33,703 bases of DNA from a virus: positions 1 through 33,703 of the IMG/VR virus record IMGVR_UViG_3300021976_000045; one strand, written 5' to 3'. Numbering within the stretch: position 1 is the first letter of the stretch; the number at the start of each line of letters is the position of its first letter. Shown here in pieces: positions 7,482-27,558 of this stretch. The position numbers were made by a program, and so were the translations under genes. The notes under the pieces were generated by a model, which did not search any database, had not been told where the DNA came from, and saw only the letters and a program-made list of their open reading frames with translations.

Positions 7482-7666
7482 TTATCTGTGCCGACCACGA
7501 GTCTGTACGCGTTACAAATAAACATTCTGGATACGATAGCCACGACCGGCTTTCTGCGCGGCACTTCAACGGTCAGCTCAAGGCCATTCGGCACCATCCT
7601 TGCAATCACTTTCCCATGGCCATCGCGAAACCGCAGCGTGTTCAGAAGTTTGTTATATGTTTTCAT
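7478..7666 (-). CDS. Small hypothetical protein coupled to large terminase
   Basis: 62 residues, start MKTYNKLLNTLRFRDGHGKV. The ATG at 7666 overlaps the terminase stop as TGATG. Basic, with a beta-strand-rich centre (GLELTVEVPRRKPVVAIVSR). No membrane segment or metal motif. A longer frame from 7717 exists but would lie inside the terminase gene. Function unknown. The fixed coupling suggests a late gene. Confidence 0.6.
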   Translation of the reverse strand: MKTYNKLLNTLRFRDGHGKVIARMVPNGLELTVEVPRRKPVVAIVSRMFICNAYRLVVGTDK

Positions 7667-9183
7667 CAGTCCATCCGATACGTTGATGGCTGCTGCTTGT
7701 CGGCCCGGATTAACCAATCGAACGAGCCGTACTTCGGACCTTTCGGAACAAAGCTGTCTTTCTTGGGCGCCATGCGTGGGCGCGACATGCAGCCGTACCT
7801 AATACCGTCGCAGGGATGATCCTCCCCGTCGGTGTCGGCGTCTTCGTACTTGGCCTCGATGTCGTCGTGTTGCAGGGCCGACAACGTGCGGATCGCATCC
7901 GGGCAGAATTGCGTGAAGAACAGCATCGCCGGTGAATGCTCCGGGCCATGATCGCCGCGCAGACGATAGCGAATCTGATTCCAGCCCGGCAGCCGGCGTT
8001 TGTCGGATCTGCGCAGCATGAGTTTCTTGCCCCTGACCGACACCTTCATCGCGCGCTCAGCGAGCGACGGCCCGCCGTCCTCGTCGAACATGGAGGAGTC
8101 CACCGTGTGATATGCAATCACGTCCCCGCGGCACCGCTCGATGACCCCTTTGGCCCACTCCTCGATCGGGAGTTTCAATCCCAGGTTCTGGCTCGGGCGC
8201 TCTTTCGATTCGCCGTACCACTCGCGATAGCAGATGAGCGCGCCGGGCAGGATGGTGATCGGAATGCCGGTCACCGACTGCGCCTGCATTTCGCGCTGCG
8301 CGACCACGAACCAACCGGTCCAGAAGGGGCGTGCCGATCCCCAATCCGTTGACGTAAAGCGCCGCCAGTCGGAGGGAAACGGCATGTCCACGATGACGTG
8401 ACGCCCGCGTGAGAACTCGGGAAAGAACGCGCCGGCCACGATGTCCCAATCGCCTTCTAACCAGGCGCGCACGAGTTCAGGGGAGCCCGACATCTGCAGG
8501 TTGGCGACATACTCGGGGCCAAGTAAGTTGTGATCGGTGATCTTGCCGGGAATGAAAATGCGCTCGCGTTTCACGACTTTCAGCGTCCACGGGTTCACGA
8601 AGTCTTCGGTAATGATCTTCCATCCACCGGGCGCTGGATCGATGTATCTGCGCTTGACCCAACCGTGGCCGGGCCCGCCTGGGTTGCCGGTACCGCGGAA
8701 GCCGCACGGCACACCATAGGACGAGCGCAACGTCGCCATCAACTTAAACACCGGCGCCGGATTGGGAAAGTTGCCCAATTCCTCGACATAGACCCGCGTG
8801 TTGGAGTCGCCCTGATAGTTCTCGGCATCCGCATCACGGTCCAGATACTGAAAGCGTAAGCGCGCTCCTTGCGGGGAGGTGCAGATATGCCCGGAAAAGT
8901 CAAAGCCCAAGGGAATGAAGATGCGCCGCGCGCGTTCGAAGGTTTCGCGCAACTGCTCGCGCTCGCGCCGCACGATGAGCCCGATCGCGTTCTCTCCGTA
9001 CTGATCCGCGTGGCTGATCCAGTCGCCGAGCGAGCCGTCTGTCTTGAGTGAGCCGCGTGAGCCGCCGTAGAAAATCTCAAAGACGGGGCAAGCGATGTAC
9101 GCAGCCTGCGGTCCGGATCGCGGCTCCCATGCAATTAGTGTTTCGTCAGTTCCGGCGGTGGTGGCGAGTATTTCTTCAGCCAT
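7666..9183 (-). CDS. terL: Terminase large subunit (ATPase-nuclease)
   Basis: 505 residues, the normal length. It powers DNA packaging into the prohead and cuts the concatemer. The N-terminal ATPase has a deviant Walker A, GGSRGSLKTD (about 40-49), and a Walker B with catalytic Glu, RVYVEELGN (about 130-138). A GTGNPGGPGH segment follows in the place of the coupling motif. The C-terminal RNase H-like nuclease shows STDWGSARPFW (first Asp), VDSSMFDEDGG (second acidic) and DHPCDGIRYG (third Asp). The start overlaps the small-subunit gene by 49 bases, and the stop is shared with the next gene. Confidence 0.93.
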   Translation of the reverse strand: MAEEILATTAGTDETLIAWEPRSGPQAAYIACPVFEIFYGGSRGSLKTDGSLGDWISHADQYGENAIGLIVRREREQLRETFERARRIFIPLGFDFSGHICTSPQGARLRFQYLDRDADAENYQGDSNTRVYVEELGNFPNPAPVFKLMATLRSSYGVPCGFRGTGNPGGPGHGWVKRRYIDPAPGGWKIITEDFVNPWTLKVVKRERIFIPGKITDHNLLGPEYVANLQMSGSPELVRAWLEGDWDIVAGAFFPEFSRGRHVIVDMPFPSDWRRFTSTDWGSARPFWTGWFVVAQREMQAQSVTGIPITILPGALICYREWYGESKERPSQNLGLKLPIEEWAKGVIERCRGDVIAYHTVDSSMFDEDGGPSLAERAMKVSVRGKKLMLRRSDKRRLPGWNQIRYRLRGDHGPEHSPAMLFFTQFCPDAIRTLSALQHDDIEAKYEDADTDGEDHPCDGIRYGCMSRPRMAPKKDSFVPKGPKYGSFDWLIRADKQQPSTYRMD

Positions 9184-13374: not shown

Positions 13375-13469
13375 AATTTCCTCCGGTAGAAATCCGGCAA
13401 AGGGAAACGACAGCAGAGCGGGCCGGAAGACCGCCTCTTTGGGAGCTACCCTAGCTGTCGTTATTCGAT

Positions 13470-13667
13470 TCATGCCCTCACCCAAATCGCCGGCCATCGC
13501 CCGCGGCACTTGTGCAACGGGCGCACCTTGTTCGATCGCTTCGCCATATGGTGCACTCTCGCGTAATTGAGCCGTGCATTGGCCTGGTGCAGCGAAATGT
13601 CGAGCATCGCTGCAAATTCGGACACGGTTGCCGGCAGGCAATCTAGCCATTTGAGTGCGAGGGTCAT
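13470..13667 (-). CDS. Small winged-helix-like protein
   Basis: 65 residues, starting with an ATG that overlaps the DUF1937 stop (ATGA). ATVSEFAAMLDISLHQANAR followed by LNYARVHHMAKR resembles a short helix-turn-helix used by small phage proteins that choose or modulate transcription. It has a basic C-terminus (RPLHKCRGRWPAIWVRA). Function not established. Confidence 0.55.
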   Translation of the reverse strand: MTLALKWLDCLPATVSEFAAMLDISLHQANARLNYARVHHMAKRSNKVRPLHKCRGRWPAIWVRA

Positions 13668-14005
13668 GGCGTTGGCTCCATATAATCCACGCTAACGCTC
13701 AGCCGTTTAGCCAGCGATATTTCCGCGGCTACGCCATTTGACGCTTCCCACCCATCAAGCATCAGCACGATTACTTTGTTCGAGTGCTCAATAAACGCGG
13801 TATCGTATTTGCACCAGAAATCCCACCCGAGAGGCAGATCACCAGCCTCTGCTATCGGGTGTGTGTGCGAGATTGGCGAATAGACAAGCAGACCCTTGCG
13901 CATCAGTTCGGCAGCCACTTTGTTGATTGCCTCGAAGCGAGCGACGCGTACGGCACGATCAGGGTGCGAATAGGGCCCAGCGAGGTATGTCAGTGGCCCG
14001 CTCAT
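13664..14005 (-). CDS. DUF1937 protein (nucleoside deoxyribosyltransferase-like)
   Basis: 113 residues from MSGPLTYLAGPYSHPDRAVR. The YLAGPYSH start, YSPISHTHPIA centre, WDFWCKYDTAF and VLMLDGWEASNGVAAEI blocks match the DUF1937 family, a Rossmann-like relative of nucleoside 2-deoxyribosyltransferases. The E in the AAEI block corresponds to the nucleophile region of that superfamily. It may act on nucleotides or a modified base, though the family is biochemically poorly known. A longer frame to 14131 would be Arg-rich and would overlap a better small gene. Confidence 0.85.
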   Translation of the reverse strand: MSGPLTYLAGPYSHPDRAVRVARFEAINKVAAELMRKGLLVYSPISHTHPIAEAGDLPLGWDFWCKYDTAFIEHSNKVIVLMLDGWEASNGVAAEISLAKRLSVSVDYMEPTP

Positions 14006-14021
14006 GCGATGATTCCCGGAT

Positions 14022-14144
14022 TCACTTGCGCACCCTGCCCGCCCGCTTCTTCGCTTTGCGCGCAATCGCTTTGCGGATAAGCTTGCTCGCAGTCTCGTCC
14101 AACGACACCGAGCCGCCCTGCTGAGCGGCACTACGTGAAATCAC
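14022..14144 (-). CDS. Small basic protein, 40 residues
   Basis: GTG start with a GCGAG-type ribosome site. The protein begins MISRSAAQQGGSVSLDETAS and ends with a strongly basic helix (KLIRKAIARKAKKRAGRVRK). It fills the gap between the RHH gene and DUF1937. Its charge suggests nucleic-acid binding. The evidence is position and composition only. Confidence 0.4.
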   Translation of the reverse strand: MISRSAAQQGGSVSLDETASKLIRKAIARKAKKRAGRVRK

Positions 14145-14897: not shown

Positions 14898-15131
14898 TCA
14901 CGCGGCCTGACCAAAAATGGCCGGGTCAATGTCGGCCCGTGTTACTGCGCCCTTGGTAACCACTTCAATATTGCGGCAAAGTTCCGCCGTGATCGTCCGG
15001 TTGCCGTTCTCAAGACTGCGCAGCGTAGATTCCGCGATGCCAAGTTTTTGGGCCATCTCCGCAGTGGAAATGGCGCACCGCTCCCGGTATTCGCGCAATA
15101 GATTGTGTCTTTGTCCCATAGTGATACGCAT
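14898..15131 (-). CDS. XRE-family regulator (Cro-like candidate)
   Basis: Up to 77 residues: a stand-alone XRE helix-turn-helix (LREYRERCAISTAEMAQKLG followed by IAESTLRSLENGNRTI). The recognition helix AESTLRSLENGNR is close to SESALRSWTNGNR of the divergent regulator at 15207, so the two may read the same operator. Start choice is open: the ATG at 15131 coincides with the -10 of a TTGACA promoter, while the in-frame ATG at 15119 would give a nearly leaderless mRNA. No C-terminal domain, as in Cro. Confidence 0.8.
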   Translation of the reverse strand: MRITMGQRHNLLREYRERCAISTAEMAQKLGIAESTLRSLENGNRTITAELCRNIEVVTKGAVTRADIDPAIFGQAA

Positions 15132-15206: not shown

Positions 15207-15593
15207 ATGCTGATAAAAGATGTTATCTGGCTGGATTGGGGCAAGCGCTTCAGAAAGCTGCTCAGGCACAAAGGCAGCAACCTCGCCAAGGTGGCCGACG
15301 CGATGCAGCTTTCCGAGTCTGCCTTGCGCAGCTGGACTAACGGCAACCGGCAAATCAATTTGCAGGACTTCTTTAAGCTGTGCGAGGTTGCCGAGGTCGA
15401 TCCGGCGGTGGTGCTCTTTGCCGTACCCAGGATGACCGAAGAATTAAGCAAACACATTGCTGCGTTGAGCGCCTCGGCTACCACCGTTGACCGGGCCCCA
15501 ACCGCCCAAAGCGACTACCTGAAGATGAAGGCCGACTTCAAGGCAAAAACGAAGTCTACTGGTAAAAAAAATACCGATAAAGTCGTAGCCTAG
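15207..15593 (+). CDS. XRE-family repressor (CI-like candidate)
   Basis: 128 residues. An N-terminal XRE domain (WGKRFRKLLRHKGSNLAKVA followed by DAMQLSESALRSWTNGNRQI) leads to a helical cap (FFKLCEVAEVDPAVVLF) and a Lys/Thr/Ala-rich tail of about 45 residues. There is no S24-type peptidase, so it would not be RecA-cleavable like lambda CI. It is divergent from the 14898 regulator, lies between two clusters of the same operator, and heads an operon of membrane and exported proteins. A repressor role is inferred from this layout. Confidence 0.75.
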   Translation: MLIKDVIWLDWGKRFRKLLRHKGSNLAKVADAMQLSESALRSWTNGNRQINLQDFFKLCEVAEVDPAVVLFAVPRMTEELSKHIAALSASATTVDRAPTAQSDYLKMKADFKAKTKSTGKKNTDKVVA

Positions 15594-19654: not shown

Positions 19655-19851
19655 AGCCAACTCGACAGATCCGCGAAACCATTGCCCCGGTCGTCAGAGC
19701 CGACGAGGCGAAGAAGGACGGTTATCTATCGCGCAAGTTCGCCTGGATACAGCGTAATTACGCCAAGTGCTGGGAGGATGCGCATATCGAAAATGCCGAG
19801 CGTGATGCACCGGTTAACAAAATCTCATCTTTACGAAAGGTATCTAAATGA
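19651..19851 (+). CDS. Small hypothetical protein upstream of recT
   Basis: 66 residues, MKPTRQIRETIAPVVRADEA, then a basic aromatic helix (YLSRKFAWIQRNYAKCWEDA). The ATG overlaps the previous stop, and its own stop overlaps the RecT-like start (ATGA), so it is directly coupled to the recombination genes. A longer upstream frame lies inside the preceding gene and was not used. Confidence 0.6.
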   Translation: MKPTRQIRETIAPVVRADEAKKDGYLSRKFAWIQRNYAKCWEDAHIENAERDAPVNKISSLRKVSK

Positions 19852-20789
19852 ACGCACCTGATAAAGCAGTAACGGCGTTTTCGCTTGTTCCCACCAATCT
19901 ACAGCAGGCCATGGATCTCGCGAAATTGATTGCGGACTCAGACCTGGCCCCCAAGGATTACAAGAGCAAGCCCGGCAACGTGATGATTGCAGTACAGATG
20001 GGCCAGGAAGTAGGCCTACCCCCGATGTCTGCGATTCAAAATATAGCCGTCATCAATGGCAAGCCCGGGCTCTATGGCGACGTCGGCAAAGCCATTCTGC
20101 TCGCCCGCGGTTTTATTATCGAAGAGGATGATGTCGAGGTCATCAAGAAAACCGGCATGGGGCGCTGCAGGATCACGCGGCCCGGACACCCGCCCTGCGA
20201 GCGCACCTTTTCCAAGGAGAGCGCCAAGACTGCGGGCCTTCTCGGTAAGGCTGGACCCTGGACCAACTACCCAGAGCGTCAGATGGCGTGGCGCGCATTC
20301 TGGTTTGCCGCACGCGATATCGCCGCCGACGTGCTGAAGGGTCTACACGGCGCTGAAGAATTGAGCGACGCGCCCATGAAGGACATCACGCCTATGGCGC
20401 GGCCCGGCATGGCTATCTTGCCGCCCTATGAGCAGGAGAAATTCGACAAGAATATCTCCGCATGGAAAAAGCTCATCCTCGACGGCAAACGCACGCCTGA
20501 AGAAATCATCGCGACGGTGTCGACTAAGAACCTCCTGTCCGATGAACAGAAGAAAAAGATAGTCGACATCAAGCCGGCGCCCATCACCGTTGACAACGAC
20601 GACATCGACCAAAGCGAGACCAATCCCACAGTCACCTTTGCAATTGTCGAAGAACGGTTGCGCAAGGCTAAAAACGACGGTGACATGCTGGATGCCGAGG
20701 CCGACTTGATCGGCGAAGTCGAGGACCCGCAGCAGCGCGCCGAGTTGGGCACGCTATACAAAGCGCTTAAAGCTGAATTGACCAAGTAG
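19848..20789 (+). CDS. RecT-like single-strand annealing protein
   Basis: 313 residues. The N-terminal two thirds carry the phage RecT-type core: SLVPTNLQQAMDLAKLIADS, then PGNVMIAVQMGQEVGLPPMS with AIQNIAVINGKPGLYGD, and a C-terminal MAWRAFWFAARDIAADVLKG helix. These are typical blocks of recombinases that anneal complementary strands after exonuclease resection. It is directly upstream of a YqaJ exonuclease, the usual two-gene recombination pair. The last 100 residues are charged and variable and may contact the exonuclease or an SSB. Confidence 0.85.
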   Translation: MNAPDKAVTAFSLVPTNLQQAMDLAKLIADSDLAPKDYKSKPGNVMIAVQMGQEVGLPPMSAIQNIAVINGKPGLYGDVGKAILLARGFIIEEDDVEVIKKTGMGRCRITRPGHPPCERTFSKESAKTAGLLGKAGPWTNYPERQMAWRAFWFAARDIAADVLKGLHGAEELSDAPMKDITPMARPGMAILPPYEQEKFDKNISAWKKLILDGKRTPEEIIATVSTKNLLSDEQKKKIVDIKPAPITVDNDDIDQSETNPTVTFAIVEERLRKAKNDGDMLDAEADLIGEVEDPQQRAELGTLYKALKAELTK

Positions 20790-20819: not shown

Positions 20820-22478
20820 ATGAAAACGACGATCCACGATCTAACGCAGGGTACCGACGCATGGCACCAATTCCGTCTCGAGCACAACGGCGCCAGCGAA
20901 GCCGCCGCCATGCTTGGACTGTCGAAGAACGTCACCCGCACTGAATTGATCGCCGCCAAGGCAACCGGCATTGCCAAGGAGTTTAGCGACTTCGTGCAAA
21001 CTAAAGTCCTCGACCGCGGGCATGAGGTCGAAGCGCTCGCGCGCCCGATTGTCGAGGACATCCTGGGCGAAGAACTATTCCCGGCTACCTTTTCAATGGG
21101 GCGGCTATCGGCATCCTGCGACGGCCTGACGATCGACGGTTCCACCGCGTTCGAGCACAAGCAATGGGAGCGCGAGCTCGCCAACGCGGTATCCCGCGGT
21201 GAGCTGCCCGACGAACATCAGCCGCAATGCCAGCAGGTCATGCTGGTGACCAATGCCGAGCGCTTGATCTTCGTTGTGTCCGATGGCACGCGAGAGAATA
21301 TGGTGCATCTTGAAGTGCGGCCGAATCAGGCGTGGATCGATCGCATCTACGCGGGCTGGGCGCAATTCGAGCGTGACCTTGCGAACTACCGGCATGTTGA
21401 AGTGCTGCCGGGCCCGGTCGCAGAAGTGAAAATGGCCCTGCCCGCCCTCTCCATTCAGGTCAACGGGCAAATCAGTCTCATCGATAACTTGGGCGTCTTC
21501 GGTGCCAAGCTGACCGAATTCATAGACGGCATCGATCGCAACCCATCAACCGACCAGGCGTTCGCCGATACCGAGGCCGCGATCAAGACGCTGGAGAAAG
21601 CACAGGTTGCGCTTGAGGCAGCCGAGGCGAGCGCCCTAGCACAGACTGCCAGCATCGACGAAATGCGGCGCACGGTGGCCCAATACGCAGGCCAGGCACG
21701 GGCTACACGGCTTATGCTCGAAAAGCTGGTTAAGGTGCGCAAAGACACCATCAGGATCGAGATCGTGCAGGAAGGCAAGGCCAAGTTTGCAGAGCACATA
21801 TTAGGGCTGAACAAACGGCTGGGCAAAGACTACATGCCAGTGGTCGTCGCGGACTTTGCCGGCGTTATCAAGGGCAAGCGTACGGTCACTAGTTTGCACG
21901 ATGCCGTCGACACCGAGCTTGCGCGCGTCACGATCGAGGCTAACTCGATCGCCGACCGGATCCAGATCAACATGAACTCGCTGCGCGAACTGGCGGCGAA
22001 CCACGTTTTGTTGTTCGCTGACACGGCACAGATTGTATTGAAGGCAAACGATGATCTGGTCGCGCTGATCACGCTGCGCATCGACGCTCACACCAAGGCC
22101 GAGGCGGACCGACTCGAAAAAGAAAGAGAAACTATCCGCGCCGAGGAAGAGGCGAAGGCCAAAGCCGCGGCCGACAAGCAGATTGCGGATGAGCGGGCGG
22201 CAGAACAAAAACGGATCGATGAGGAACGCGCCTCCGCCCAGCCGGCCACCGTAGAGGCCCAAGTCGCACAGACGCCGGCTGGCCCAGCCACAAGGTCAGC
22301 GGCGACCATTTCAGCGCCGACGCGCTCCGGAACATACGGGACTAGCCGGTATGGCACCGAACGCCTGCGAGCACTTATCGACGCAGGGCTTGCAGACATG
22401 ACACCTGGCGAGCTGCAGCAGTCGCTCGACGCCATCCGGCAGATACGCACAGCGCGCGTGCAGCGCGTTTCGGCCTAA
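20820..22478 (+). CDS. YqaJ-type exonuclease with long C-terminal extension
   Basis: 552 residues, much longer than a minimal YqaJ (about 200-300). The N-terminal 200 residues hold the PD-(D/E)XK core: WHQFRLEHNGASEAAAMLGL, Glu71 in RGHEVEAL, Asp101 in SCDGLT, Glu112 and Lys114 in FEHKQW, and a QPQCQQVML helix. It would resect double-strand ends for the RecT-like partner. Residues about 220-400 are helical (DUF1351-like pattern), 420-470 is a charged coiled coil, and the end is a small helical domain. The extension suggests a fused accessory domain. Confidence 0.88.
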   Translation: MKTTIHDLTQGTDAWHQFRLEHNGASEAAAMLGLSKNVTRTELIAAKATGIAKEFSDFVQTKVLDRGHEVEALARPIVEDILGEELFPATFSMGRLSASCDGLTIDGSTAFEHKQWERELANAVSRGELPDEHQPQCQQVMLVTNAERLIFVVSDGTRENMVHLEVRPNQAWIDRIYAGWAQFERDLANYRHVEVLPGPVAEVKMALPALSIQVNGQISLIDNLGVFGAKLTEFIDGIDRNPSTDQAFADTEAAIKTLEKAQVALEAAEASALAQTASIDEMRRTVAQYAGQARATRLMLEKLVKVRKDTIRIEIVQEGKAKFAEHILGLNKRLGKDYMPVVVADFAGVIKGKRTVTSLHDAVDTELARVTIEANSIADRIQINMNSLRELAANHVLLFADTAQIVLKANDDLVALITLRIDAHTKAEADRLEKERETIRAEEEAKAKAAADKQIADERAAEQKRIDEERASAQPATVEAQVAQTPAGPATRSAATISAPTRSGTYGTSRYGTERLRALIDAGLADMTPGELQQSLDAIRQIRTARVQRVSA

Positions 22479-23917: not shown

Positions 23918-24132
23918 GCGAATTAACCGACCTATCAATAAAAATGCGCTCCCGTGCAGACACCAACAATCTGCCGGCAGAGCACCCGCTACGGCTACAT
24001 GCCGATAAATTTGACAAAGCAGCGGCTGGATATTACTCGTCTGAGCCGACTGTAACCGTCAAGTCGTTCATGGGTGCATGGGCGAGGGCGCGTAGAGCGT
24101 GGAGTGATTACACGGGGGAGGATTTGATATGA
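23914..24132 (+). CDS. Small hypothetical protein, 72 residues
   Basis: MSELTDLSIKMRSRADTNNL, then helices rich in Lys, Ala and aromatic residues (RLHADKFDKAAAGYYSSEPT, WARARRAWSDYTGEDLI). Overlaps both neighbours by 4 bases. Shares its MSEL-T beginning with the gene at 24905. Soluble, function unknown. Confidence 0.6.
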   Translation: MSELTDLSIKMRSRADTNNLPAEHPLRLHADKFDKAAAGYYSSEPTVTVKSFMGAWARARRAWSDYTGEDLI

Positions 24133-24908
24133 ACTACGACGGACGCAAGCCTGAACCGCCATACAACACCGACTCGGATGAACTCACCGCCGCCAACGCT
24201 CGCATAGCTCAAATGCGTGCCGCCTACGACAAGCTGTATTGGCATTGGGTGGAGGCGGAGCAAAGGGCTGAGACTATCGAGCGGGAGACGATAGAGCGCT
24301 GTGCGATGGTGTGCGAGGACCGCCGCTATAAAATTGAACGGAGCGGGGAGCTTAACGGAACTACTGAATATTCAGATGGAGCTAGAACAGAGGTGGTGTA
24401 TTGCGCCATAAGCATCCGCGCACTAGCCCCCGCGCCGACAGGCAGCAAGACCGAGAACGACTGGTGGATGATCTATTTCGATGATCAAGATCGAAGGCCG
24501 GAAATATTCACCGAGGAAGCGGCCGCCAGGTATCGCTACAAGGAAATATCGGCAAGCTGGAATGCCCACTTGTTCAAGCGAGTCGATAGCAATTCGCGCG
24601 ACTTTGATCCTGGACTAGCGCCCGCGCCTAACGAATCAGAGCCACTATACAAACACTACAAAGGCGATATATACCGCATCCTGCACGTCGCTCACGTATC
24701 GGATAACGCAAGGGTTGGTGAGCGAGCAATAGTCTACTGTTCGAGCAAGGGACAGATTAATGTGCGAGGTGAACATGAGTTCAATGAGCCAGTTATGTGG
24801 CCGGATGGCATAGTTAGGCCACGCTTTGCCGCACTTACGCCTAACAAATCGTATTGGAGAGTGTCGCCAGCCGCGCCTAACGAATCAGTTACCGGGAGCG
24901 AGGAATGA
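24129..24908 (+). CDS. Mosaic protein with DUF1653 domain
   Basis: 259 residues in three modules joined by similar Ala/Pro/Asn-Glu-Ser linkers. Module 1 (1-95) is an Ead/Ea22-like coiled helix (ANARIAQMRAAYDKLYWHWV, ERCAMVCEDRR). Module 2 (about 105-150) is WWMIYFDDQDRRPEIFTEEA with an SWNAHLF block common in small phage proteins. Module 3 (about 172-240) is DUF1653: YKHYKGDIYRILHVA ... IVYCSSKGQINVR ... RPRFAAL. The linkers APAPTGSK, APAPNESE and AAPNESVTGSEE look duplicated. Function unknown. Confidence 0.75.
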   Translation: MNYDGRKPEPPYNTDSDELTAANARIAQMRAAYDKLYWHWVEAEQRAETIERETIERCAMVCEDRRYKIERSGELNGTTEYSDGARTEVVYCAISIRALAPAPTGSKTENDWWMIYFDDQDRRPEIFTEEAAARYRYKEISASWNAHLFKRVDSNSRDFDPGLAPAPNESEPLYKHYKGDIYRILHVAHVSDNARVGERAIVYCSSKGQINVRGEHEFNEPVMWPDGIVRPRFAALTPNKSYWRVSPAAPNESVTGSEE

Positions 24909-25150
24909 GTGAGCTAACGCGGGAGCAGATAGAAGGTATTCTGACGGCAGGAGCCGAGGTTCTTTACGACGAAGAACTAAAAAATCTATGCGATATGGCA
25001 TTACGCGCCCATGACATTCGCGCCAAGACAGCGAGCGATTCGGAGGTATATGTAAAGCGGACTTGTGCGCAGTGCAAGCGTATTATTTTCTTGCCAGCCC
25101 CGCCGAGTGAGGGAGCGCGCGAGATTGCAACCGGGAGCGAGAAGAAATGA
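24905..25150 (+). CDS. Small protein with one CxxC
   Basis: 81 residues. MSELTREQIEGILTAGAEVL and a helical front half, then VKRTCAQCKRIIFLPAPPSE with a single CxxC, and a GAREIATGSEKK end that echoes the TGSEE end of the preceding protein. Coupled to both neighbours by 4-base overlaps. A role cannot be inferred. Confidence 0.6.
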   Translation: MSELTREQIEGILTAGAEVLYDEELKNLCDMALRAHDIRAKTASDSEVYVKRTCAQCKRIIFLPAPPSEGAREIATGSEKK

Positions 25151-25452
25151 CGCACATCGATGACTGGCTGGATAGCTACGAGCCTAAGACTGACGGCGAG
25201 CGCTTCGCCAAGAAATTTCTTGAGCATGCGCGCAGGCCAGCGGCAACTATGGATCATAAGTGGCTCGCCACCAATCCATTGTTCTGCACATATCAGGGCA
25301 AAAGGTATCGTTGTAACGGCGCTTCCAGATTAGGTGACGTGTGGCTGCACGATGATTTTACAAAGAGCTATGGCTATGTCCATCGGGTTGATGTAGCAGA
25401 GTGCTCTGAGTGGAGTGAGGGAGCGCAGGCGAAAGGCGGGACAGATGAGTGA
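25147..25452 (+). CDS. Hypothetical protein before the Thg1-like gene
   Basis: 101 residues. Acidic helix start (MTHIDDWLDSYEPKTDGERF), then a small beta-rich half (FCTYQGKRYRCNGASRLGDV, WLHDDFTKSYGYVHRVDVAE) rich in aromatics. Coupled upstream by a 4-base overlap and downstream by 8 bases with the Thg1-like gene. No family recognised. Confidence 0.6.
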   Translation: MTHIDDWLDSYEPKTDGERFAKKFLEHARRPAATMDHKWLATNPLFCTYQGKRYRCNGASRLGDVWLHDDFTKSYGYVHRVDVAECSEWSEGAQAKGGTDE

Positions 25453-26179
25453 CGACATCGGGGATCGGTTCAAAGGTTACGAGCGCGCATTCGACTACGC
25501 ATTGCCACGTCGGATACCCATGGTAATTCGGGTCGATGGGCGAGCATTTCACGGCATTAAACTCGACAAGCCGTTCGACAGTCTTTTTTTTGATCACATG
25601 GCGACCGTTGCTCAAGCCCTCTGCGAGGAAATCCAGGGCGCGGTGCTGGCCTATTTTCAGTCCGACGAGATATCTATAATCGTGAGAGACGACATGAGTT
25701 TGCAGTCTCAGCCTTGGGTTGGTAAGAGGCTGTCCAAAATACTCAGTCTGAGTGCGGCTATCGCAACCGGCACGTTCAATCAAGACTCCCCCTATGGATT
25801 GCGCCAGTTCGACAGCCGCGCATTTGTCGTTCCCGATCTGTCGGAGATCGTTAATTACTTGGTATGGCGCCAGCAGGACGCGACCCGGAATTCTGTCAGC
25901 ATGGCAGCCAGGGCGGTCTTTTCGCACAAGCAATGCAACCTTAAAACGACGCCTGAACTTCGGCAAATGCTGGAGGACGGGGGAAGCCCTTGGGAGCAGG
26001 CTCCCACTCATTTCAAGCGCGGTGCAGTGTGCAAGTCAATAACGGTCATAAAGCCAGTGCTTCAGACCGGAGAAACCTGCGAACGCAGCGAATGGGTAAT
26101 TGATCTTGAACCACCGGTATTCACGCAGCAACGCGAGTACGTAGAATCGCTGTATGAGAAGCAATCCAAGCCGGGCTGA
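25445..26179 (+). CDS. Thg1-like 3'-5' polymerase (TLP)
   Basis: 244 residues. Thg1 and its relatives add nucleotides to tRNA 5' ends in the 3'-to-5' direction. Seen here are the catalytic VIRVDGRAFHG (Asp31, Gly32), AYFQSDEISII (Asp74, Glu75), DSRAFVVPDLSEIVNYLVWR, QQDATRNSVSMAARAVFSHK and the late THFKRGAV block, all in family order and at family length. The eukaryotic tRNA-His HINN-type motif is replaced by RNSVSM, as in bacterial and archaeal TLPs that repair truncated tRNAs. No tRNA gene or RNA ligase is visible nearby. Last large gene of the early operon. Confidence 0.92.
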   Translation: MSDDIGDRFKGYERAFDYALPRRIPMVIRVDGRAFHGIKLDKPFDSLFFDHMATVAQALCEEIQGAVLAYFQSDEISIIVRDDMSLQSQPWVGKRLSKILSLSAAIATGTFNQDSPYGLRQFDSRAFVVPDLSEIVNYLVWRQQDATRNSVSMAARAVFSHKQCNLKTTPELRQMLEDGGSPWEQAPTHFKRGAVCKSITVIKPVLQTGETCERSEWVIDLEPPVFTQQREYVESLYEKQSKPG

Positions 26180-26182
26180 TTG

Positions 26183-26236
26183 ATGCGCCGGCCGCTCAAA
26201 GAAGTGCTGAAAGAGATTGATGGAGAGACGAAATGA
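26183..26236 (+). CDS. Possible 17-residue micro-ORF
   Basis: MRRPLKEVLKEIDGETK starts 3 bases after the Thg1-like stop and ends in an ATGA overlap with the excisionase candidate. Its main role may be translational coupling. It could equally be chance. Confidence 0.25.
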   Translation: MRRPLKEVLKEIDGETK

Positions 26237-26493
26237 ATACTGAAGATATATCCAAGGAAACCTACCGTCGCATGGAGCGTGTGCTGTGTGCAAGCTGGCT
26301 ATCGTTTACCGATCTGTGTAGGCATTGCGCATTAGAGGAAACCTCGATGCGTGAATTAACCCGCAGGCCGGACTTTCCGACACCGTCGTCACCTACCGGA
26401 ACATTAAAGGGTAGGCGATGGGCTAAGCAAGAAGTAAACGCATGGATGGAAGCGCACAAACTAGAGTCTATCGGCGATGTCGGCCGCTTGTGA
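26233..26493 (+). CDS. xis: AlpA-like excisionase candidate
   Basis: 86 residues. WLSFTDLCRHCALEETSMRE, then LTRRPDFPTPSSPTGTLKGR and RWAKQEVNAWMEAHK match the AlpA/MerR-type winged helix: helix, turn, a beta-wing with FP and RW, then a terminal EVxxW helix. Such proteins act as recombination directionality factors or regulators of integrase. It faces the integrase and overlaps its 3' end by 33 bases. It ends the early operon, so it would be made upon induction. Confidence 0.8.
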   Translation: MNTEDISKETYRRMERVLCASWLSFTDLCRHCALEETSMRELTRRPDFPTPSSPTGTLKGRRWAKQEVNAWMEAHKLESIGDVGRL

Positions 26494-27378
26494 GTTGATG
26501 TATCTAAGAGCCATTTCCAGCTTTTTCCATCCGAACATTTCACATAGTTCGTATGGAGTCAGTTTACCAGACCGCGCTATGCGAGTTGCCGCCGTATGCC
26601 GAGTAGCATGGAATGTGTAATCCTTTCCCAATCTATCGCGGACTTTCCGAAAATGAATATCAAGCTGATACGAATTGAGATTGAAACCGAAAGCGGGAAG
26701 CATATGTCTAGCCGCCTGACTAAGGGGCACCTTTCTACTGGAACCGTTTTTAGTGTCCCGGAGGACAACGAACTTATCAGCTATTTGATCACTTCTTATT
26801 TCAACAATCTCGCCAGCTCTCATGCCAGTCTCGAGTGCGAATAGAAATGCTTCCGCAACCTGCTTTTGCATGGGACTGGTACAGGCTGCAACGAACTCCT
26901 TAACTTCATCGTCCGTGATTACCCTATCTCTCGGCTTACCATCAGGCGGGCGCTTGACCTTTCGAAACGGGTTGGCGTCCAGCCAGCCCCATTCGACCGT
27001 TGCGGTTTCTAGGATATTGCCGAACAGGTTCATTTCCCGGCGCACGGTCCCGGTCGATACAGACTTAAGCCGCTCATCCCGCCATTTAGCCAAAGCGTCC
27101 GATGTTGTTCCAGCTAGGAGTCGGTTCGGTAGCTGGCGCTTGAATGCCGCGATCCTGGTGCGCTCCCACCGCTCGCCCTTCTTATGCGTGCTTACTGTTT
27201 CCAAGTATCGCTGTAGCGCATCGTGGAGCGTTTTACGGGGGGTATGGGTTGCAGTAAATTCTATCTTGGCAGCCCAGGCTTGGGCTTCAGTTTTGCTGGT
27301 GAACATTGCAGACCTTCGAATACCGTTGCGGGCTATCTCCGCACGCCATTTCTTTCCAACTTTTCTGAACGTAGCCAT
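26461..27378 (-). CDS. int: Tyrosine integrase
   Basis: About 305 residues from ATG 27378 (a TTG at 27405 would add 9). The N-terminal strands (FRKVGKKWRAEIARNGIRRS) suit an arm-type DNA-binding domain, followed by a SAM-like core-binding domain. The catalytic domain has Arg in ETGMRAGEI, Lys in RDTKNGSSRKVPL, His-x-x-Arg in FHATRHTAATR, Trp in the place of the second His (FGWKKLEMAL) and the nucleophile Tyr in RYIN. It would integrate the phage at a host attB. No ribosome site is obvious. Confidence 0.95.
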   Translation of the reverse strand: MATFRKVGKKWRAEIARNGIRRSAMFTSKTEAQAWAAKIEFTATHTPRKTLHDALQRYLETVSTHKKGERWERTRIAAFKRQLPNRLLAGTTSDALAKWRDERLKSVSTGTVRREMNLFGNILETATVEWGWLDANPFRKVKRPPDGKPRDRVITDDEVKEFVAACTSPMQKQVAEAFLFALETGMRAGEIVEIRSDQIADKFVVLRDTKNGSSRKVPLSQAARHMLPAFGFNLNSYQLDIHFRKVRDRLGKDYTFHATRHTAATRIARSGKLTPYELCEMFGWKKLEMALRYINSQAADIADRL

Positions 27379-27558
27379 GCGTAAATATTTGCGTAACTTA
27401 TCCAAGGATGGCGAACCTTGGCGAGTATACTGAGATACAATGTCAGGCGTAAACAGGCTTTACGAGTTTTACGAATTAGCTATGTATTGCCCCCTCCCGG
27501 CACTCACACCGCTACGTTTAATGCGGGTTTCCGGGGTTTTTGCGTAATTACTGCGTGA
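27379..27558. other. attP-like region with repeated GCGTAA arm-type sites
   Basis: Next to the integrase start, GCGTAA occurs at 27379, 27391, 27447 and 27542, with GCGTGA at 27553 and inverted TTACGA at 27460 and 27469. TTTGCGTAACT and TTTGCGTAATT are near-identical copies at opposite ends. The 50-70 bases between, including GCCCCCTCCCGGCACTC and GCGGGTTTCCGGGG, may hold the crossover core. The core cannot be fixed without the host junctions. Confidence 0.55.

Follow-up and report, generated by a model that had tools for sequence, protein, structure and literature searches.

A lone Thg1-like protein in a temperate-type phage

What does a 3'-5' nucleotidyltransferase do in a small phage that carries it without a visible tRNA gene or RNA-repair partner? 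This question is raised by IMG/VR virus record IMGVR_UViG_3300021976_000045, which was analyzed over its entire length of 33,703 bases (hereafter the window; linear and probably incomplete) and which encodes a Thg1-like protein (TLP), by family a 3'-5' nucleotidyltransferase, at 25445-26179 on the plus strand. Apart from TLPs and the related Thg1 enzymes, no natural 3'-5' polymerases are known. A preliminary description had read the gene as an intact reverse-direction polymerase and had proposed that it may counter nucleases that cut tRNAs; the observation is confirmed and its interpretation is partly supported. We give an even chance to the reading that the TLP repairs the 5' ends of 5'-shortened host tRNAs, on its own and alongside the recombination genes of the phage.

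The open frame begins with ATG and encodes 244 amino acids (254 from an alternative GTG start at 25415). Its product matches the Pfam family PF04446 Thg1 (E = 7.6e-22; 78.1 bits, cut-off 29.2), phrog_4717 (E = 1.9e-68, residues 1-241) and the sequence of the Bacillus thuringiensis TLP (BtTLP; PDB 4kgk; E = 1.3e-44), which places the homology far beyond chance. The AlphaFold2 model has a mean predicted local distance difference test (pLDDT) score of 94.4, and its top PDB match in Foldseek is BtTLP (4kgm; template modelling (TM) scores 0.85/0.90, 37% identity, E = 5.7e-24), so that a palm-like fold as in BtTLP is predicted for the window TLP. The family matches, the match to BtTLP and the model thus bear out the identification as a Thg1-like polymerase.

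We aligned 174 TLPs, taken both from phages and from the genomes of prokaryotes. D74, E75, K98, R125, R142, D145 and N149 are kept in all 174 rows and D31 in 173, the exception (L068) lacking the whole stretch; the window TLP has each of them, including all three metal-binding carboxylates (D31, D74 and E75), which it shares with BtTLP. The activation residues K42 and S73 and the transfer residues R29, K98 and R125 are also kept in the alignment to BtTLP, whose K43, S74, R28, K99 and R131 all have equivalents in the window TLP and in which the roles of these residues were defined (PMC3701042; this and the other PMC papers are cited from excerpts). The claim that the catalytic blocks are intact therefore holds for metal, activation and transfer residues alike. 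Judged by sequence, the window TLP is a real, intact Thg1-like protein that is predicted to be catalytically competent.

The eukaryotic Thg1 enzymes (human, 3otb/3otc; C. albicans, 3wbz) share the fold and the two-metal active site with the window TLP but show only 19-23% identity in structural alignments and differ from it in their HINNLYN motif. As the preliminary description had noted, HINNLYN is replaced in the window TLP by RNSVSM (residues 148-153), the (K/R)NS(I/V)SM motif common to BtTLP, which marks a bacterial-type TLP. Going by the name of its family and by the label assigned automatically to phrog_4717, the protein would be a tRNA-His guanylyltransferase that adds G-1 to tRNA-His. 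However, bacteria normally encode G-1 in the tRNA-His gene. Moreover, HINN occurs in 0/174 of the aligned TLPs, and bacterial and archaeal TLPs prefer the repair of 5'-truncated tRNAs over G-1 addition, as far as the excerpts of PMC6471195 and PMC3701042 go. A guanylyltransferase role is therefore highly improbable.

A phage clade with a shortened activation loop

TLPs are not rare in phages: they occur in 127 of 50,697 phage GenBank records and in at least 565 IMG/VR stretches, and a genome scan covering 84,980 species gave 158 TLP matches. Three pairs of identical or near-identical TLPs (L112/L116, L113/L117 and L069/L120) came from metagenome-assembled genomes (MAGs) of different phyla, or from a MAG and a viral contig. 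Such cross-phylum identity probably reflects phage contigs binned into MAGs, which would inflate counts of 'bacterial' TLPs.

In a tree of viral TLPs and the best 80 of the 158 genome matches, the window TLP formed one clade (support 99 in the Shimodaira-Hasegawa-like approximate likelihood ratio test, SH-aLRT) with those of two IMG/VR records, L002 (3300037761_000058, 53 kb; 64% identity to the window TLP) and L003 (3300021057_000274, 389 kb and of jumbo size; 56% identity). None of these best 80 genome-derived (bacterial) matches belonged to the clade, whose deeper placement is unsure owing to long branches. Codon differences among the three members fall mostly on third positions (0.56-0.63; first and second positions, 0.22-0.36), which argues that selection acts on the encoded protein.

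The L002 record resembles the window further in having integrases but differs in its tRNA genes, with a tRNA-Ile(UAU) following the TLP and a tRNA-Leu adjacent to the integrase, whereas L003 differs in its 45 tRNA matches and three RNA-ligase matches. At 3464-4547 of L002 an integrase is directly followed by the opposite-strand tRNA-Leu(CAA), a likely attachment site. The three loci have only the TLP in common, apart from a 28%-identical integrase shared by the window and L002. With no other genes common to the clade loci, the TLP gene appears to travel alone, and the comparison with the nearest TLP relative lends no shared locus to a counter-defence role.

A trimmed loop is the distinctive trait of this three-phage clade. 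The stretch A34-D45 has 12 residues in the window TLP, L002, L003 and L095 (an archaeal-MAG row), compared with 14 in 157/174 rows; by position, the two residues missing from the HTYTKG loop correspond roughly to the T38-K39 area of BtTLP, where T38 packs on the activating purine (excerpts of PMC3701042). All four also have F (F48 in the window) for BtTLP L49, as do 31 of the 170 other rows, while M153 and K42 are kept in the window TLP. Apart from being a phage protein of predicted activity, the window TLP differs from BtTLP in this region, and from the deletion in the clade one would expect a change in the pocket that receives the purine for 5' activation.

This change raises the question of the substrate. 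A shortened loop might reflect another substrate or nucleotide use, with the TLP acting on non-tRNA 5' ends or only adenylylating or guanylylating ends, for example stabilizing phage RNAs or aiding end joining. The loss of two residues near the purine-contacting position, the L49 replacement and the lack of a tRNA or tRNA-repair partner in the window are compatible with such a role. On the other hand, the remaining activation and transfer residues are all kept, nothing points to a specific other substrate, and L095 lies elsewhere in the tree, so that the deletion may have arisen twice. We regard a non-tRNA substrate as unlikely. A wider proposal is that the window, L002 and L003 represent a phage-only lineage jumping singly between unrelated phages (integrase-bearing ones of ~44 kb and 53 kb and a jumbo-size one of 389 kb), in which the loop deletion rebuilt the 5'-activation pocket and yielded a 3'-5' polymerase that works unaided and chooses its nucleotide or substrate differently, a one-gene answer to host attack on RNA 5' ends that needs no ligase or kinase. 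We think it quite unlikely that all of this applies.

RNA-repair genes near phage TLPs

A comparison of phage TLP neighborhoods had been suggested in the preliminary description. The comparison covered 50 TLP records with a length of 30 kb or more. Of these, 24 encode an RNA ligase (PF09414, above cut-off), 14 a CCA-type transferase and five RtcB, 29 having at least one of the three; a tyrosine recombinase is found in 12/50. RNA ligase was present in 11 of 48 tRNA-bearing control records, three of which carry a TLP themselves, and in 9/45 without these. The size-stratified odds ratio for RNA ligase in TLP over TLP-less tRNA-bearing records was 3.2 (p = 0.022). These comparative data support the view that TLPs in phages generally have their place in RNA repair.

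We also searched with 16 hidden Markov model (HMM) families built for this analysis. A strict RNA-repair family lay within 10 kb on either side of the TLP in 12/20 records and of the opposite point in 4/20 (p = 0.022), a count biased towards the TLP, as most of the families were picked from TLP neighborhoods. The neighbor kinds confirmed by Pfam at other phage or bacterial TLPs (one representative of each family) are RNA ligase, RlaP, RtcB, CCA transferase and PNKP phosphatase, along with the nicotinamide adenine dinucleotide (NAD) and ADP-ribose genes NAMPT, Macro, ADP-ribosylglycohydrolase and NADAR. Families of the latter group were near the TLP in 8/20 records and near the antipodal point in 0/20, with the same bias from families picked near TLPs; NadE-like genes, judged from their sequence, recur near phage TLPs as well.

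Individual loci illustrate these neighborhoods. In the control record G086 (that of L224) the TLP (54882-55277) lies between RNA_ligase matches at 52698-53144 and 56550-57038, each within 2.5 kb. In Bacillus phage Goe8 (L004, 6001-10749) the genes that come after the TLP encode a putative AIPR protein, a sigma factor and RtcB. The jumbo phages Stenotrophomonas RAS14 (L007) and Xanthomonas XacN1 (L010) share the order TLP, small genes, rIIA/rIIB-type genes and RNA ligase. TLPs of phrog_4717, found for example in Goe8, XacN1, RAS14, phiA009 and KashFlow, belong to the same protein family as the window TLP, with 38-44% identity for the six aligned and 77-99% query coverage among the matches listed. 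The records of these named phages span 88-498 kb (another record is a 4.2-kb scrap), compared with probably ~44 kb for the window phage, and several have the TLP near an RNA ligase, RtcB, polynucleotide kinase (PNK) or COG0617-type gene, whereas the window TLP is alone.

None of the 16 families (RNA ligase, PNK, RtcB, RlaP, CCA transferase and others) was found in the window record, which is a fragment, and none near the TLP of L002. Such solitary TLPs make up 37 of 93 other viral loci, L002 included. The TLP itself had no match to any defence family. The suggestion that it counters tRNA nucleases therefore draws no support from its neighbors or from defence-family matches.

tRNA genes and phage TLPs

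The reported lack of a visible tRNA gene is correct, in that ARAGORN found none in the window and Rfam listed none at E values up to 10. It is a weak oddity, as the record is a fragment and 13/50 TLP records likewise have no tRNA match (37/50 have one at E <= 0.001, 36 of them above cut-off). The Rfam matches in the window were int-alpA and a chance-level miRNA family, nothing else. The int-alpA match (13394-13461, minus strand; 36.3 bits for a gathering score of 35.8) is far from the integrase of the phage and is unlisted in the filtered search.

With tRNAs in 37/50 TLP records, the TLP might mature or edit tRNAs encoded by the phage itself, in the missing part of its genome or since lost, in the manner of 5' tRNA editing in protists. 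Two tRNA-Ile(UAU) genes would fit this role, one in L002 (3078-3151; 1.5 kb downstream of the TLP, U1-U72 mismatch) and one in L044 (12539-12612; 1.7 kb downstream, A1-C72 mismatch). Seven further tRNA-Ile(UAU) near TLPs, however, seem paired at 1:72 by eye. When tRNAs other than those for Met and His were compared in a 7-bp frame, 1:72 mismatches were no commoner in TLP phages: 4/54 near TLPs and 5/267 further off, against 12/470 in control viral loci, of which a few tRNAs were cut by contig ends and which were not freed of TLP carriers. Lacking such an excess, 5'-editing of phage tRNAs as a general rule is ruled out. The closeness of tRNA-Ile(UAU) to the TLP (6/6 within 2.2 kb in a first set) was not replicated in a second set, which comprised 117 non-identical loci (2/7), and the two most complete phage relatives of the window, which are syntenic with it, have no tRNA match. 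Editing of phage tRNAs by the window TLP is thus decidedly doubtful. A post hoc count gave tRNA-Ile(UAU) a higher share near viral TLPs (11/153) than in controls (12/586), the latter picked by one T-arm pattern that may bias isotypes. In a Sulfobacillus harzensis contig (L134, 5160-7422) the TLP is flanked on either side by the tRNA genes of a cluster.

The gene in its phage

Two relatives found with the large terminase (78% and 71% identity; 43.3 and 40.6 kb) share with the window the head-to-terminase block and a tail gene. In the relative G051, which carries an integrase, ~10-11 kb separate these parts, so that virion genes probably make up what is missing from the window, and the whole genome of the window phage is probably ~44 kb. 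The host was looked for without success, a phage DNA search giving no match and the best 80 of the 158 genome matches including no bacterial member of the TLP clade. The TLP was found in 0/22 terminase relatives, most of them short fragments; on this count its conservation across the phage genus is ruled out and the gene is taken as an accessory acquisition.

The TLP sits in a rightward recT-recE-xis run, within a tightly packed series of plus-strand genes from ~23.4 kb to 26.5 kb. RecT-like annealing protein (19848-20789; phrog_561, 1.8e-41) and RecE-like exonuclease (20820-22478; phrog_7655, 5.2e-167) genes lie upstream on the same strand, as do, closer to the TLP, genes for a 259-aa protein with a C-terminal DUF1653 domain (24129-24908; by Pfam), an 81-aa open reading frame (ORF) overlapping each neighbor by 4 nt (24905-25150; by ORF coordinates and Pfam scan) and a 101-aa ORF without Pfam match (25147-25452), all on the plus strand. 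The end of the last ORF overlaps the TLP start by 8 nt, making translational coupling likely. Directly 3' of the TLP is a weakly matched gene for an excisionase- or helix-turn-helix (HTH)-like protein (26233-26493, plus; phrog_66, 8.2e-05; HTH_17, 0.015), and a tyrosine integrase gene (26461-27405, minus; PF00589, 2.9e-20) faces the run. An HTH_3 repressor-type gene (15207-15593, plus) is divergent from a YdaS/HTH_3 (Cro-type) gene (14898-15131, minus). The integrase, the weak xis-like HTH gene and the repressor-type genes point to a temperate-type phage. The TLP had been placed at the end of a repressor-controlled early operon; its position is indeed early-operon-like, but the excisionase-like gene follows it, and repressor control is plausible from the divergent repressor-type genes, although promoter-like sites show no excess (9, against 8.6 in shuffles).

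A place next to xis and int is the usual home of cargo genes, and the TLP might mainly serve the lysogen, in tRNA upkeep under stress or in protection from other phages. Its GC content at third codon positions (GC3), which is lower than that of recT, recE and terL and closer to that of xis and int, and its absence from the phage relatives agree with such a lysogenic conversion gene. Against this, the TLP belongs to the same run as the recombination genes and has an overlap with the gene before it; it would probably be silenced along with them in the lysogen, and we consider this role quite improbable.

The window further encodes a replication protein, the large terminase (7666-9183, minus; phrog_2, 3.3e-33) and, near the left end of the fragment, the major head protein (300-1424, minus; phrog_9953, 1.5e-44). 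A DUF1937/DUF4406 protein (13664-14131, minus), related to nucleoside 2-deoxyribosyltransferases, gave weak PADLOC matches to TIR-containing Aga models.

A proposed role in tRNA 5'-end repair

Repair of 5'-shortened host tRNAs, the role that we favor, builds on the family, fold, active-site residues, operon-like position and accessory status of the TLP, which are established by the results above. The TLP would be made together with the recombination genes of the temperate phage. During infection or induction, it may act on a 5'-shortened tRNA or a similar hairpin RNA, activating its 5' end with a purine nucleoside triphosphate and adding back Watson-Crick-paired nucleotides that are templated by the 3' strand of the acceptor stem. 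Trimmed or mis-processed host tRNAs would thereby remain usable during phage protein synthesis, and the TLP would act alone, as a horizontally acquired extra gene outside any ligase/kinase repair set. This role is supported by the closest solved relative, BtTLP, given the preference of bacterial and archaeal TLPs for truncated tRNAs, and by the kept metal, activation and transfer residues; the third-codon-position excess, the richness of TLP phages in RNA-repair genes and the repair-type neighbors elsewhere argue in the same direction.

Several points weigh against it. No substrate, kinase, ligase or tRNA was found in the window, and the cuts of many anticodon nucleases lie at sites that offer no paired template to a TLP acting by itself. 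In a positional test with three literature-chosen Pfam families (RNA ligase, CCA-type transferase and RtcB), the clustering of repair genes with the TLP was weak at up to 10 kb (12/29 records, 7.6 expected; p = 0.044) and not significant at 5 kb (p = 0.14). Nor do TLP phages show a general excess of 5'-mismatched tRNAs.

The TLP of the Mycobacterium phage KashFlow (Omegavirus), which we take to be a temperate phage of cluster J, indicates that a temperate setting is not unique to the window. The use of phage Thg1 for RNA repair against host defences was already suggested in 2010, in a paper whose excerpts also link PNK and RNA ligase to Thg1 in bacteria (PMC2904730). The excerpted survey of jumbo phages (PMC7824862) lists Thg1 as sporadic among RNA-repair enzymes, and Thg1 is annotated in other phage papers (PMC6292376, PMC8504454). 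Our search of the open-access literature on Thg1 (or tRNA-His guanylyltransferase) in prophages and temperate phages listed no paper that deals specifically with such a TLP. The family, its chemistry and the counter-defence idea are thus already in print, and the window gene is mostly ordinary; it stands out by being on its own in a small genome and by its shortened loop, and it adds to the numerous phage TLPs a lineage whose activation site is changed in a defined way. Compared with jumbo phages, in which a TLP is one among tens of tRNAs and several repair genes, this small temperate-type phage offers a much simpler test case.
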